From Ralstonia pickettii (GTDB lineage: Bacteria > Pseudomonadota > Gammaproteobacteria > Burkholderiales > Burkholderiaceae): a stretch of 64,000 nucleotides of DNA. This document shows, one piece after another, positions 55,261-58,825 of the stretch. The position numbers and the translations under genes are program-made. Position 1 is the stretch's first letter, and every line of letters begins with the position of its first letter. The notes beneath the pieces were generated by a model that made no database searches, had not been told where the DNA came from, and worked only from the letters and a program-made list of their open reading frames with translations. The stretch lies in contig NZ_MCGB01000113.1 of assembly GCF_001699815.1 (NCBI RefSeq), forward strand, positions 62,001 through 126,000. The letters are read 5' to 3'.

Positions 55261-55920
55261 ATGAGCACGCCTGCACTCGCCACCGTTTCCGCTGCTGCTT
55301 CCTCTGCGGCACCCGTACAAACACAGTCCATCGCGCCGCTGCGTGAGTTCGTGACGGCGCTGTCGCGCCTGCTGGATCAGCAACCGACCGAAGCCGAAAT
55401 CCTCTCGCGCGCCGGTGCCCTGCTCGGTGCGCTCGTCGCCCGCGACGACTGGTTGCCCGCTGAATACTCGCAGCCGCACCCAGAGCACTTCCAGCAGTTC
55501 CTCCTGCATGCCGATTCCGGCGAGCGCTTTTCCATCGTCAGCTTTGTCTGGGGCCCGGGCCAGCGCACACCCATTCACGACCACACCACGTGGGGCCTGA
55601 TCGGCATGCTGCGCGGCGCTGAATACTCGCAGCCGTTCAAGCTCGACGCGCAAGGCAAACCCCAACCCGACGGCCCGGCCATCCGCCTGGAGCCGGGCGC
55701 TGTAGAACACGTCTCGCCGCGCGTGGGGGACATCCACCGCGTGCACAACGCCTTTGACGATCGCACCTCGATCAGCATCCACGTCTACGGCGGCAACATC
55801 GGCGGCATCCACCGTTCCGTCTACACGGAAGACGGCGAGCGCAAGCCGTTCGTCTCCGGCTATTCGAATACCCATCTGCCCAATCTCTGGGACCGTTCCA
55901 AGGACACGCCCGCATCATGA
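55261..55920 (+). CDS. Thiol dioxygenase (cysteine/3-mercaptopropionate type)
   Basis: A 219-residue cupin of the cysteine dioxygenase family. Iron ligands are His106 and His108 (PIHDHTTWG) and His159 (GDIHRV); Tyr176 (HVYGGN) is the conserved outer-sphere residue. The family adds O2 to a thiol to give a sulfinate. Bacterial members with this pattern often prefer 3-mercaptopropionate. Its last bases overlap the rhodanese start (ATGA), so both are made together. Confidence 0.88.
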   Translation: MSTPALATVSAAASSAAPVQTQSIAPLREFVTALSRLLDQQPTEAEILSRAGALLGALVARDDWLPAEYSQPHPEHFQQFLLHADSGERFSIVSFVWGPGQRTPIHDHTTWGLIGMLRGAEYSQPFKLDAQGKPQPDGPAIRLEPGAVEHVSPRVGDIHRVHNAFDDRTSISIHVYGGNIGGIHRSVYTEDGERKPFVSGYSNTHLPNLWDRSKDTPAS

Positions 55921-57566
55921 GTACCACCATCGACGCTATCGACGCCATCGAATCGCCGGTCGCTGCACCGCTGGCCGAAACCCACGTCCCGACGTTGGCG
56001 TATGCCGACGTGCGCGCCGCCCTGCTGGCCCGCAAGGAGATTGCACTGGTCGACGTCCGCGAGGAAGACCCGTATGCCCAGGCGCATCCGCTATGGGCAG
56101 CCAACCTGCCGCTCTCCCGGCTGGAGTTGGAAGCGTGGTCGCGCATTCCGCGCCGCGACACGTTGATCGTGCTGTACGGCGTGCACGATGGCGTGGACCT
56201 CGCCCCGCGCGCGGCGGCCAAGCTGGCTGAACTCGGCTATACGCGCGTGTACCTGCTCGAAGGCGGACTCGATGGCTGGCGCGCAGCCGGCGGCGAGGTG
56301 TTCCAAGACGTGAACGTGCCGAGCAAATCCTTTGGCGAATACGTGGAGGCGCACCGCCACACGCCGTCGCTCAGCGCGCAGGAGGTCAAGGCGCTGCTTG
56401 ATGCCAAGCGCGACGTGGTGATCGTCGATTCGCGCCGCTATGAAGAGTTTCAGACCATGAGCATCCCCACGGCGACGAGCGTGCCGGGTGCCGAGCTGGT
56501 GTTGCGCATCCGCGAGCTGGCACCGGACCCGAGCACGCAGGTCATCGTCAATTGCGCGGGACGCACGCGCAGCATCATCGGCACGCAATCGCTGGTGAAT
56601 GCCGGCATCCCCAACCCGGTGGCGGCACTGCGCAATGGCACCATCGGCTGGCTGCTGGCCGATCAGGTGCTGGACCATGGCGCCAACCGCCGTCATCCGC
56701 AGGACGTGTCTGCCGAATCACGCGCGCAGGCACAGGCCGATGCGCGCGCCGTGGCCGAACGCGCCAACGTGCCGCGCATTGCGCTGGCTGAGGTTGCCAA
56801 ACTCGAGACCCCGGACCGCACGGTCTACAAGCTCGACGTGCGCACACCCGAGGAATATGCCACCGGCCACCTGCCCGGCTTTGCCAGCGCGCCCGGCGGC
56901 CAGCTCGTGCAGGAAACCGATCACACCGCCGCCGTGCGCGGCGCGCGCATCGTTCTGGCCGATGACGACGGCGTGCGCGCCGACATGTCCGCCTCGTGGC
57001 TCGCACAGATGGGCTGGGAGGTTTATGTCGTCGATCCGGTCGACGCGAGCGCGCGCAGCGTCACCGGGACGTGGCAGACACCTGCCCCGCCGCTCCCCGC
57101 CGTGCGCACGGTCGACGCCCGCGCCCTGGCCGGCTGGCTGGAAGCGGGCGACACCGCCGTCATCGACGTCACGCGCAGCGCCAACTACGTTGCGCGGCAT
57201 ATTCCGGGTGCGTGGTTTGCTGTACGCTCAGACTTGCCCGCAGCGCTGGCGCGCATCCCGGCGGCCCGCCGCTACGTGCTGACGTGCGGCTCCAGCCAGC
57301 TCGCCCGCTTTGCCGCCGCCGACCTTGCCAAGCTGACGCAGGCCGAGGTGTGGGTGCTCGACGGAGGCACTGCAACATGGGTGGCCGCCGGCCTGCCCAT
57401 TGAAACCGGCGAGACCCGCCTGGCCTCAGACCGCATCGACCGCTACCGCCGCCCGTATGAAGGCACGAGCGCACCGCGTACCGCGATGCAGGCCTATCTC
57501 GATTGGGAGTTCGGGCTGGTCGAGCAGCTGCGGCGCGACGGAACGCACGGGTTCCGGGTCATCTGA
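55917..57566 (+). CDS. Four-domain rhodanese sulfurtransferase
   Basis: A 549-residue protein with four rhodanese domains (about 20-130, 140-260, 280-390 and 395-510). Catalytic loops: domain 1 has YGVHD with no cysteine, domain 2 has CAGRTRS (Cys213), domain 3 has DDDGVR with no cysteine, and domain 4 has CGSSQLAR (Cys457). So domains 2 and 4 look active and 1 and 3 inactive, like two fused TST-type pairs. It would move sulfane sulfur from a persulfide or thiosulfate. It follows the thiol dioxygenase gene with an ATGA overlap. Confidence 0.9.
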   Translation: MSTTIDAIDAIESPVAAPLAETHVPTLAYADVRAALLARKEIALVDVREEDPYAQAHPLWAANLPLSRLELEAWSRIPRRDTLIVLYGVHDGVDLAPRAAAKLAELGYTRVYLLEGGLDGWRAAGGEVFQDVNVPSKSFGEYVEAHRHTPSLSAQEVKALLDAKRDVVIVDSRRYEEFQTMSIPTATSVPGAELVLRIRELAPDPSTQVIVNCAGRTRSIIGTQSLVNAGIPNPVAALRNGTIGWLLADQVLDHGANRRHPQDVSAESRAQAQADARAVAERANVPRIALAEVAKLETPDRTVYKLDVRTPEEYATGHLPGFASAPGGQLVQETDHTAAVRGARIVLADDDGVRADMSASWLAQMGWEVYVVDPVDASARSVTGTWQTPAPPLPAVRTVDARALAGWLEAGDTAVIDVTRSANYVARHIPGAWFAVRSDLPAALARIPAARRYVLTCGSSQLARFAAADLAKLTQAEVWVLDGGTATWVAAGLPIETGETRLASDRIDRYRRPYEGTSAPRTAMQAYLDWEFGLVEQLRRDGTHGFRVI

Positions 57567-57578
57567 CTGGCCTGCAAG
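57567..57578. other. Short gap before the tandem array
   Basis: Twelve bases between the rhodanese stop and the first repeat unit. The gap from 57832 to 57937, after the array, is AT-richer and probably holds the promoter of the next gene. Confidence 0.5.
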
Positions 57579-57831
57579 GTTCGGAACGTCAGGCTTGGCG
57601 TTCCGAACCCGACCGTTGGGGTTGGACACTCCATGCTTGCGGTTCCGAACTCCACCGTCGGCGTTCGGAACGTGACCGGCGTCGTTCCGAACCTCGATAT
57701 CTCGTACTTCGAACACCGACATTGAGGTTCTGAACGCCGTGCATGGGGTTCCAAACTCGGCACGCGGGGTTCATCACTCCGAGCGCGAGGTGTGGAACCG
57801 CGTGATGGCAGTCTCAAACCCACATACGCCT
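57579..57831. repeat. Degenerate tandem array, 12 units of 21 bp
   Basis: Units start at 57579, 57600, 57621, 57642, 57663, 57684, 57705 (22 bp), 57727, 57748, 57769, 57790 and 57811. Most open with GTTCGGAAC or GTTCCGAAC, a near-palindrome, followed by 12 variable bases; later units drift (GTTCTGAAC, GTTCCAAAC, GTGTGGAAC). The period of exactly 21 bp gives heptads on translation: VRNxxxx or VPNxxxx on the minus strand, SERxxxx or SEPxxxx on the plus. No unit is an exact copy of another, so the array is old or under selection only for the core. Confidence 0.85.
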
Positions 57832-57937
57832 CAGCTCACTTGCTTGCTAACAATGCTCACAACGAGCGATAACAAAACTCGTTTTGCGCATAAGGCCGCC
57901 TTGAGTAGCATCGGGACTTCCTCGCAGAGGTTCCGTC

Positions 57938-58825
57938 ATGTCCCCCTTCATCGCCCTGTGCCTGCTCATCACCTACGTGGTGTGGGGCACAACGTATCTC
58001 GCCGTCCGTTTTGCGCTGACCGATCTGCCGCCCTTTCTGATGATGGGCTCGCGTTTTCTGGCTGCGGCGTTGCTGCTCGCCCCGCTGGTCATCCTGCGAC
58101 AGCGCAAGCAGCCCGAAGAGCGGCCAACCTTGCGCCAGGTCCGCAACTGCGCGCTGATCGGCGCGTTCATGCTGGTGGGCGGCATGGGCATGACGGCGGT
58201 GGCCGAGCAGACCATCTCGTCGGGTGCGACCACGGTGATGATCGCGTCGATGCCGCTGTTCTCCACACTCTGGACGCTGCTGGCCGGCGGCCGCCTGCGT
58301 GCATATGAGATTGGCGCCATCGCGCTGGGCAGCATCGGGATTGCGGTGCTGTTTCGCGGAGCGGAGTTTCAGGCCAGCACGGTCGGCGTGCTGGCGCTGA
58401 CCACCGCCATTGCGTCATGGTCGTTCGGCTCGCAGCTCTCCAAGCGCATCGACATGCCCAAGGGCATGACGGCCTTTGTACTGGAGATGGCCTTTGGCGG
58501 CGTGGCGCTCGTGGTGCTCAGCCTGCTCACCGGCGAAGCGTGGCCCAGCCACATCGGCATGCACGCCGCGCTTGCGTGGGGCTACCTTGTGGTGTTCGGT
58601 TCGGCCATCGCATTCACGGCCTACATGGCGCTGGTGGAACGCGTGTCCACCGTCATGGCGACAAGCTATGTGTATGTGAACCCGCCCATCGCCCTGCTGA
58701 TGGGCGCATGGCTCGCCGATGAAGTGGTCGCGCCGCAGACGCTGGGCGCCACGGGCATCATCCTCGCGGCCGTGGTCGTGCTGACGGCCGGGGCTACGCG
58801 GGCGGCGCGACGGGCGGCTGCTTGA
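57938..58825 (+). CDS. DMT-family exporter (EamA, YedA-like)
   Basis: A 295-residue protein with ten membrane helices in two EamA repeats. It begins LLITYVVWGTTYLAVRFAL, and the second repeat contains YLVVFGSAIAFTAYMALVERV. These are drug/metabolite exporters; amino acids or their derivatives are common cargo. AGAGG precedes the ATG. It converges on the GGDEF-EAL gene. Confidence 0.85.
   Translation: MSPFIALCLLITYVVWGTTYLAVRFALTDLPPFLMMGSRFLAAALLLAPLVILRQRKQPEERPTLRQVRNCALIGAFMLVGGMGMTAVAEQTISSGATTVMIASMPLFSTLWTLLAGGRLRAYEIGAIALGSIGIAVLFRGAEFQASTVGVLALTTAIASWSFGSQLSKRIDMPKGMTAFVLEMAFGGVALVVLSLLTGEAWPSHIGMHAALAWGYLVVFGSAIAFTAYMALVERVSTVMATSYVYVNPPIALLMGAWLADEVVAPQTLGATGIILAAVVVLTAGATRAARRAAA

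Follow-up and report, generated by a model that had tools for sequence, protein, structure and literature searches.

Within the window (the whole stretch of 64,000 nucleotides of Ralstonia pickettii DNA that was analysed), a tandem array of short dyad-symmetric units takes up most of the space separating a rhodanese gene from an EamA-family transporter gene (Table 1). A consensus scan of positions 57450-58050 found neither a sigma-70-like promoter nor an intrinsic-terminator-like site. Rfam searches covered the window site and a related array with two 200-bp repeats (locus L100, described below), and at both they returned only matches below the gathering score. The leader of the EamA gene (57832-57937) is well conserved in eight species; within it, an inverted repeat (ACGAG...CTCGT) might serve as the gene's own operator.

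Table 1. Coordinates of the window array, its twelve cores and the neighbouring genes; core remarks give matches to the eight fixed bases.
Feature	Position	Strand	Remarks
Rhodanese protein gene	55917..57566	+	upstream neighbour; four Rhodanese stretches; stop codon 12 bp before array
Whole array	57579..57831	.	12 units of 21 bp (one 22), core GTTCNGAAC with free centre
Core 1 GTTCGGAAC	57579..57587	.	8/8
Core 2 GTTCCGAAC	57600..57608	.	8/8
Core 3 GTTGGACAC	57621..57629	.	5/8, degenerate; one extra adjoining unit in most orthologs
Core 4 GTTCCGAAC	57642..57650	.	8/8
Core 5 GTTCGGAAC	57663..57671	.	8/8
Core 6 GTTCCGAAC	57684..57692	.	8/8, heads 22-bp unit 57684-57705
Core 7 ACTTCGAAC	57706..57714	.	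5/8, degenerate
Core 8 GTTCTGAAC	57727..57735	.	8/8
Core 9 GTTCCAAAC	57748..57756	.	7/8
Core 10 GTTCATCAC	57769..57777	.	6/8
Core 11 GTGTGGAAC	57790..57798	.	6/8
Core 12 GTCTCAAAC	57811..57819	.	5/8, weak; beyond the array finder's reach, by eye
EamA-family transporter gene	57938..58825	+	downstream neighbour; begins 106 bp past array

An earlier sequence-only reading had described twelve units with an exact 21-bp period, one of them 22 bp long, and this arrangement was both read directly and re-found by an array finder, each unit starting at the first base of its core; the sole 22-bp unit is the sixth. The finder reached eleven units and the weak twelfth was assigned by eye. All eight fixed bases were matched in six cores, seven in one, six in two and five in three (the last by eye), and the kept core and varying intervening bases of the sequence-only reading hold at this array. 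The exact GTTCNGAAC motif occurs six times in the 64-kb window, always inside the array, against a mean of 0.60 and a maximum of 3 in 100 dinucleotide shuffles. Under a model trained on arrays of relatives the array scored 162.5, whereas the best of 30 order-1 Markov copies of the whole window scored 18.4; Tandem Repeats Finder detected it in part only (57595-57693, 4.7 copies). The array is not a CRISPR, as had also been stated from the sequence: the near-identical 24-48-bp repeats and unique spacers of similar length that mark such loci are not seen here, where a 9-bp core is separated by drifting spacers of 12-13 bp that match those of orthologs unit for unit.

Searching the genome and its relatives for the core at 21-bp spacing revealed that the array belongs to a dispersed, genus-wide, mostly intergenic set in Ralstonia. 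A four-unit model derived from the sequence of 29 stretches alone found arrays in all 16 Ralstonia genomes, with 14 to 87 overlapping hits in each, counts that are lower bounds because 150 first-look candidates were scored per genome. An exact two-core pattern was present in 11 of the 16 (reversed control 0). The exact three-core pattern matched 9 of 120 genomes of the family, all of them among the 10 Ralstonia genomes sampled, and none of the 110 genomes from 24 other genera; reversed controls were zero. The window array is not the only one in its species, since the same genome carries further arrays of 13 (C45), 8 (C82) and 5 (C8) units, a mostly diverged array of 15 units (C112) and a three-unit piece (C57). 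Scanning 40 loci with the array finder yielded 41 arrays of 5 to 21 units, orthologs included, 19 of which have 13 units. In eleven additional stretches there were arrays or array fragments 3 to 25 units long, and no called gene covered a perfect core. Roughly 5-12 arrays were present per genome in the four Ralstonia genomes tallied, and several copies lie on both large replicons. No called gene was overlapped by more than 20 bp by 34 of the 41 arrays; among the other seven, one (L133, not counted as a family member) lies wholly within a convincing gene and the others touch ORF ends or ORFs that are less certain. No description of the family was found in the literature searched, including term searches of PMC12306157, which gave no hits, and of PMC3733652. 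Two possible origins were considered and either rejected or weakened: whole-array transposition, as representative arrays at different loci were not alignable in register beyond noise, and a viral origin, as viral contigs gave three short, chance-like matches.

The window array is old, fairly stable and inherited in place. At this site the finder called 11-13 units in 11 of the 16 genomes; two further genomes have 8, another has 4, and the remaining two gave no call, although one of them retains two core-like units. Across the eight species aligned here the units correspond one to one, with 13 in six species and a loss of one unit each in this genome and in one other. The arrays are also dispensable, being reduced or missing at the window site in some species and missing in 7/16 genomes at a second site (site A, between convergent genes) where the other nine carry an array of 11-13 units. 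Two of the seven negative genomes have approximately 17-27 bp between the matched flanks, four have other DNA, and one has a different 21-bp array. The latter, in G014, is of another type, roughly AGCTnnnnGCTTTGCGnnTGG, at the place where nine sister species carry the GTTCNGAAC array; arrays of the G014 type lie in L272 at about 2205-2685 and in L280 at about 1049.

Comparison of orthologous arrays revealed which bases are kept. In nine other ortholog groups, 95/820 core columns (12%) were variable, compared with 41/102 (40%) at the central N, 354/1245 in the spacer (outer 232/828, 28%; inner 122/417, 29%) and 458/2470 in the flanks, which are partly coding. Fisher tests of the core against inner spacer, outer spacer, N and flanks gave p values of 7e-14, 3e-17, 1e-11 and 3e-6, respectively, to be taken as guides because columns and species are not independent. 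The core is thus better conserved than its flanks. The nine alignments, from which gapped columns were dropped, represent 26 of the 41 arrays; L098, L109, L120, L135, L102, L106, L112, L117, L125, L129, L130, the short L124_4665 and L133 were left out, and L114 and L115, which are window-site arrays, were tested at that site via L009 and L008. There, in eight species, 19/104 core columns were variable against 61/146 in the spacer (Fisher 1e-4), comprising 42/98 outer and 19/48 inner columns, with 5/13 at N; a short stretch downstream was conserved as much as the core (15/79 variable). Relative to the spacer, the site bases were clearly protected in seven of the nine groups and at the window site, weakly in one group and not in another; core protection was absent from group B (24/111 core columns against 32/168) and slight in group I (14/112 against 29/167). 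The core is often imperfect, 283 of 498 units deviating from it. The central base is free (A 129, C 118, G 115, T 136 in the same 498 units), and a free base in the very middle of a protected dyad is a telling contrast. The protected site is short, since the flanking CCA/TGG were no better kept between orthologs than the middle of the spacer (28% versus 29%).

The spacing of the sites is also constrained. With equal penalties for 19, 20, 22 and 23, 17 representative arrays (a set that includes L133, and in which L102 and L106 share one flank) contained 189 gaps of 21 bp, 31 of 22 and none of 20 (binomial 9e-10), and all 41 arrays together contained 433 gaps of 21, 64 of 22, one of 20 and one of 23. 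The extra base of the 22-bp units seems to be located in the middle of the spacer. The positions of these units recur among arrays, at intervals whose regularity is no more than suggestive (p 0.04). Two turns of B-DNA take up about 21 bp, and a spacing of 21-22 bp would hold the sites on one helix face if the local repeat is 10.5-11. These observations bear on the possibility that the arrays are decaying minisatellites or selfish satellites, in which a 21-bp repeat expands by slippage or recombination, is tolerated between genes and inherits its core from a founding unit. Such an origin would suit the near-identical or alternating units of some arrays (L106, L098) and the varying presence of arrays between species; moreover, a palindrome could be present by chance in any 21-bp minisatellite, and the cross-phylum matches reported below were chosen by the pattern itself. 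However, founding similarity does not explain why 12% of core columns vary between orthologs when the figure for the centre and spacers of those units is 28-40%, and both the asymmetry between 22 and 20 bp and the stable order of units across species misfit free slippage. We therefore consider a satellite unlikely, and as a full account it appears to be largely refuted by the ortholog comparison. Overall, the arrays are real and under selection.

The sequence-only reading had offered a heptad-repeat protein as its alternative (VRNxxxx/VPNxxxx on the minus strand). We considered such a protein with VRNxxxx, SEPxxxx or FRTxxxx heptads, intact or decayed, 21 bp being seven codons. Open stretches do exist in single genomes, for example the minus-strand ORFs 57426-57722 and 57494-57823, many arrays have at least one stop-free frame, and an array-like stretch (L133) is in frame within a CheA-like gene. 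Across the eight orthologs, however, none of the six frames, counted from the start of each array, is stop-free in all, and one ortholog has a 1-bp insertion. Each 22-bp unit shifts the reading frame, and open translations pass from one peptide class to another along the array (e.g. L111, L114); in addition, the 34 arrays free of substantial gene overlap also speak against a coding role, leaving the heptad protein disfavoured and, in our estimation, very improbable. The gene at L133 (4864-5136) is CheA/Hpt-like, named from its own sequence, and its in-frame 21-bp linker repeat has weak cores. This linker is contiguous in 3/16 genomes and 60-100 bp shorter in G005, G000 and G012 (three measured). 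Given that it has no perfect core (5-7 of 8 bases) and is unalignable in 13/16 genomes, L133 is probably ordinary coding low complexity, and insertion of an array into the CheA gene is not supported.

Another explanation is that the self-complementary units fold as structured RNA or as cruciforms that protect or end mRNAs, as proposed for REP/BIME elements. The dyad symmetry of the units and the mostly intergenic location of the arrays fit this idea, as do the convergent gaps occupied by 6/15 representatives (16% expected by bases, p 0.024; p 0.43 for convergent:divergent against gap counts) and a palindromic repeat of approximately 200 bp found within about 70 bp of 13/41 arrays. Within units, double changes at core positions 2 and 8 numbered 57 against 17.2 expected, and 38 of them were complementary, which would also fit base pairing. 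In contrast, double changes at positions 3 and 7 were at chance (14 against 13.4 expected), and those at positions 4 and 6 exceeded expectation (42 against 19.6) with only 8 of the 42 complementary; we think that both excesses stem mostly from a small number of arrays amplified internally, which are included in these counts. The letters of the core are the same from locus to locus although pairing needs no fixed sequence, the window site has no terminator-like sequence in the interval scanned, and folding relative to unit-permuted arrays was marginal (mean z -0.48, sd 1.31, n=37), with one strong case (L103, -4.35). Folding of the DNA or RNA is thus a doubtful explanation to which we assign a low probability; the lack of a common open frame and the folding only marginally beyond that of permuted units make a heptad protein or a specific RNA fold unlikely. 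An avoidance of promoter gaps was not supported either, 2/15 representatives lying in divergent gaps, as expected.

The 200-bp repeat is itself dispersed, often in inverted pairs with an array between or beside them, and its copies mostly share 81-96% pairwise identity. It was noted at L100 (4539-4748 and 5241-5470), L101, L102, L104, L105, L107, L118, L119, L121, L124, L129 and L132; no copy was found in the window, it had no Rfam match at gathering score, and five plasmid records from other genera contain pieces of 41-73 bp. At about 5399-5670 of L107, a long intergenic (CTTGCT)n run lies between two inverted copies.

In the DNA sampled, GTTCNGAAC is neither avoided nor used singly outside arrays: one copy was found in 224,180 bases of Ralstonia DNA (2.35 expected), with no isolated operator pointing to a regulator gene. 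Inside arrays there were 112 copies in 6,038 bases, where every other four-base dyad occurred at most twice, although this count is partly by construction because that core had served to train the model by which the arrays were found. An exact 17-bp form, TGGNGTTCNGAACNCCA, was present in 13/16 Ralstonia genomes (control 0), and wherever checked its sites fell in finder arrays or model-hit stretches. It is disfavoured as a longer operator, its outer bases being unprotected in orthologs and without covariation within units. Some arrays have a 42-bp super-unit: in L098 (5013-5432), L109 (4787-5038) and L120 (5071-5301) units of GTTCNGAAC alternate with GCTAAAAGC/GCTTTTAGC-like ones, and in L112 (4889-5268) they alternate with GCTCAGAGG units. 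Together with the double changes at positions 2 and 8, the alternating units may mean that a second type of site exists, and they are the least comfortable observation for a reading based on a single protein.

That reading, to which we give somewhat better than even weight, is that the array is a multivalent DNA-binding platform whose helix-phased dyad sites are filled cooperatively by a putative dimeric, sequence-specific protein. About a dozen copies of the GTTCNGAAC dyad, 21 and sometimes 22 bp apart, would place all sites on the same side of the helix, where the protein, rather than a DNA or RNA structure, would read the dyad. Since it is mainly the dyad site that is protected from mutation, such a protein probably sits on the arrays. 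The bound array might then act locally as an element of chromosome structure, for instance as an intergenic patch that is nucleoid-associated, insulating or road-blocking, and would less plausibly serve as the promoter operator of one gene. The cooperative binding suggested by the sequence-only reading is partly supported in that the core is better conserved than the flanks and the species carries other arrays; binding itself is something we infer.

Among the dispersed intergenic repeats of bacteria, those known best are hairpins or mobile elements. Plasmid Rep iterons and ParR/TubR sites are direct repeats about two helix turns apart that are bound cooperatively on one face. The Ralstonia arrays have the same two-turn tandem spacing (21/22 bp) but are present in several copies on both large replicons, and neither a rep nor a par gene adjoins the window array. 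The matS, SlmA and parS sites are short palindromes scattered over the chromosome, each read by one protein and mostly single; the Ralstonia site is similarly short, palindromic and scattered, but is hardly found other than in rows (of 5-21 units among the 41 arrays and up to 25 elsewhere). REP/BIME elements, which go with families of REP-associated tyrosine transposases, are described as 20-40-bp stem-loop palindromes with a GTAG or CGTC tag (PMC3733652, in part). Like these and REPINs, the arrays are dispersed, intergenic, dyad-symmetric and multi-copy; unlike them, they are head-to-tail rows of 21-bp units with a one-base centre, in the low per-genome numbers given above, and the GTAG/CGTC tag is absent from their consensus. 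No hairpin is possible within one core, as its 4-bp arms surround a single base. Heptameric G-rich tandem repeats reported from Xanthomonas and Nostoc (PMC4692102, in part) are, as far as that part describes them, likewise lineage-specific and share Nostoc as a host, but have short G-rich units in place of a 21-bp dyad with diverged spacers. In the Ralstonia arrays, what selection has kept points to a surface for protein contact that recurs in phase with the helix. The rule that gaps measure 21 or 22 bp and almost never 20 lends itself to direct tests in vitro, and identification of the reader protein would make it possible to test whether intergenic, chromatin-like patches made of many sites exist in some bacteria.

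We also identified the three-core pattern beyond the genus, the matches listed including many Nostocales, Saccharothrix, Actinokineospora, Pedobacter, an Acidobacteriota MAG, Treponema, Bacteroidales, Planctomycetaceae and a Thiosymbion. Eight genomes picked as positives gave counts of 59, 8, 71, 40, 36, 70, 13 and 10, with a reversed control of 0 in all, and a drawn sample of 194 cyanobacterial genomes, which includes the chosen Nostoc centre, had five with matches (59, 49, 20, 2 and 1; control 0/194). At least three units beyond the matched ones were present in 86 of 111 non-Ralstonia arrays, and of these, 63 kept the core better than the spacer, 22 kept it less well and one equally well (means 0.887 and 0.834), a modest excess that may come from selection by the pattern. 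Because random 21-bp minisatellites sometimes carry the core, the cross-phylum evidence is suggestive only. A wider proposal, that two-turn dyad arrays are a recurrent element of bacterial chromosomes, in which a putative protein family would read GTTCNGAAC-like rows with lineage-specific spacers in Ralstonia, Nostocales, Pedobacter, the Acidobacteriota MAG, Treponema, Saccharothrix and others and so fold or insulate the chromosome, is tentative and, on balance, unlikely to hold. Outside Ralstonia the spacers differ by lineage, and in some of them a second dyad, offset by half a unit, was seen by eye. Among the matches listed, Saccharothrix (L136, L166, L206, L217) has dispersed GTTCNGAAC arrays with a 22-bp period and a different spacer.
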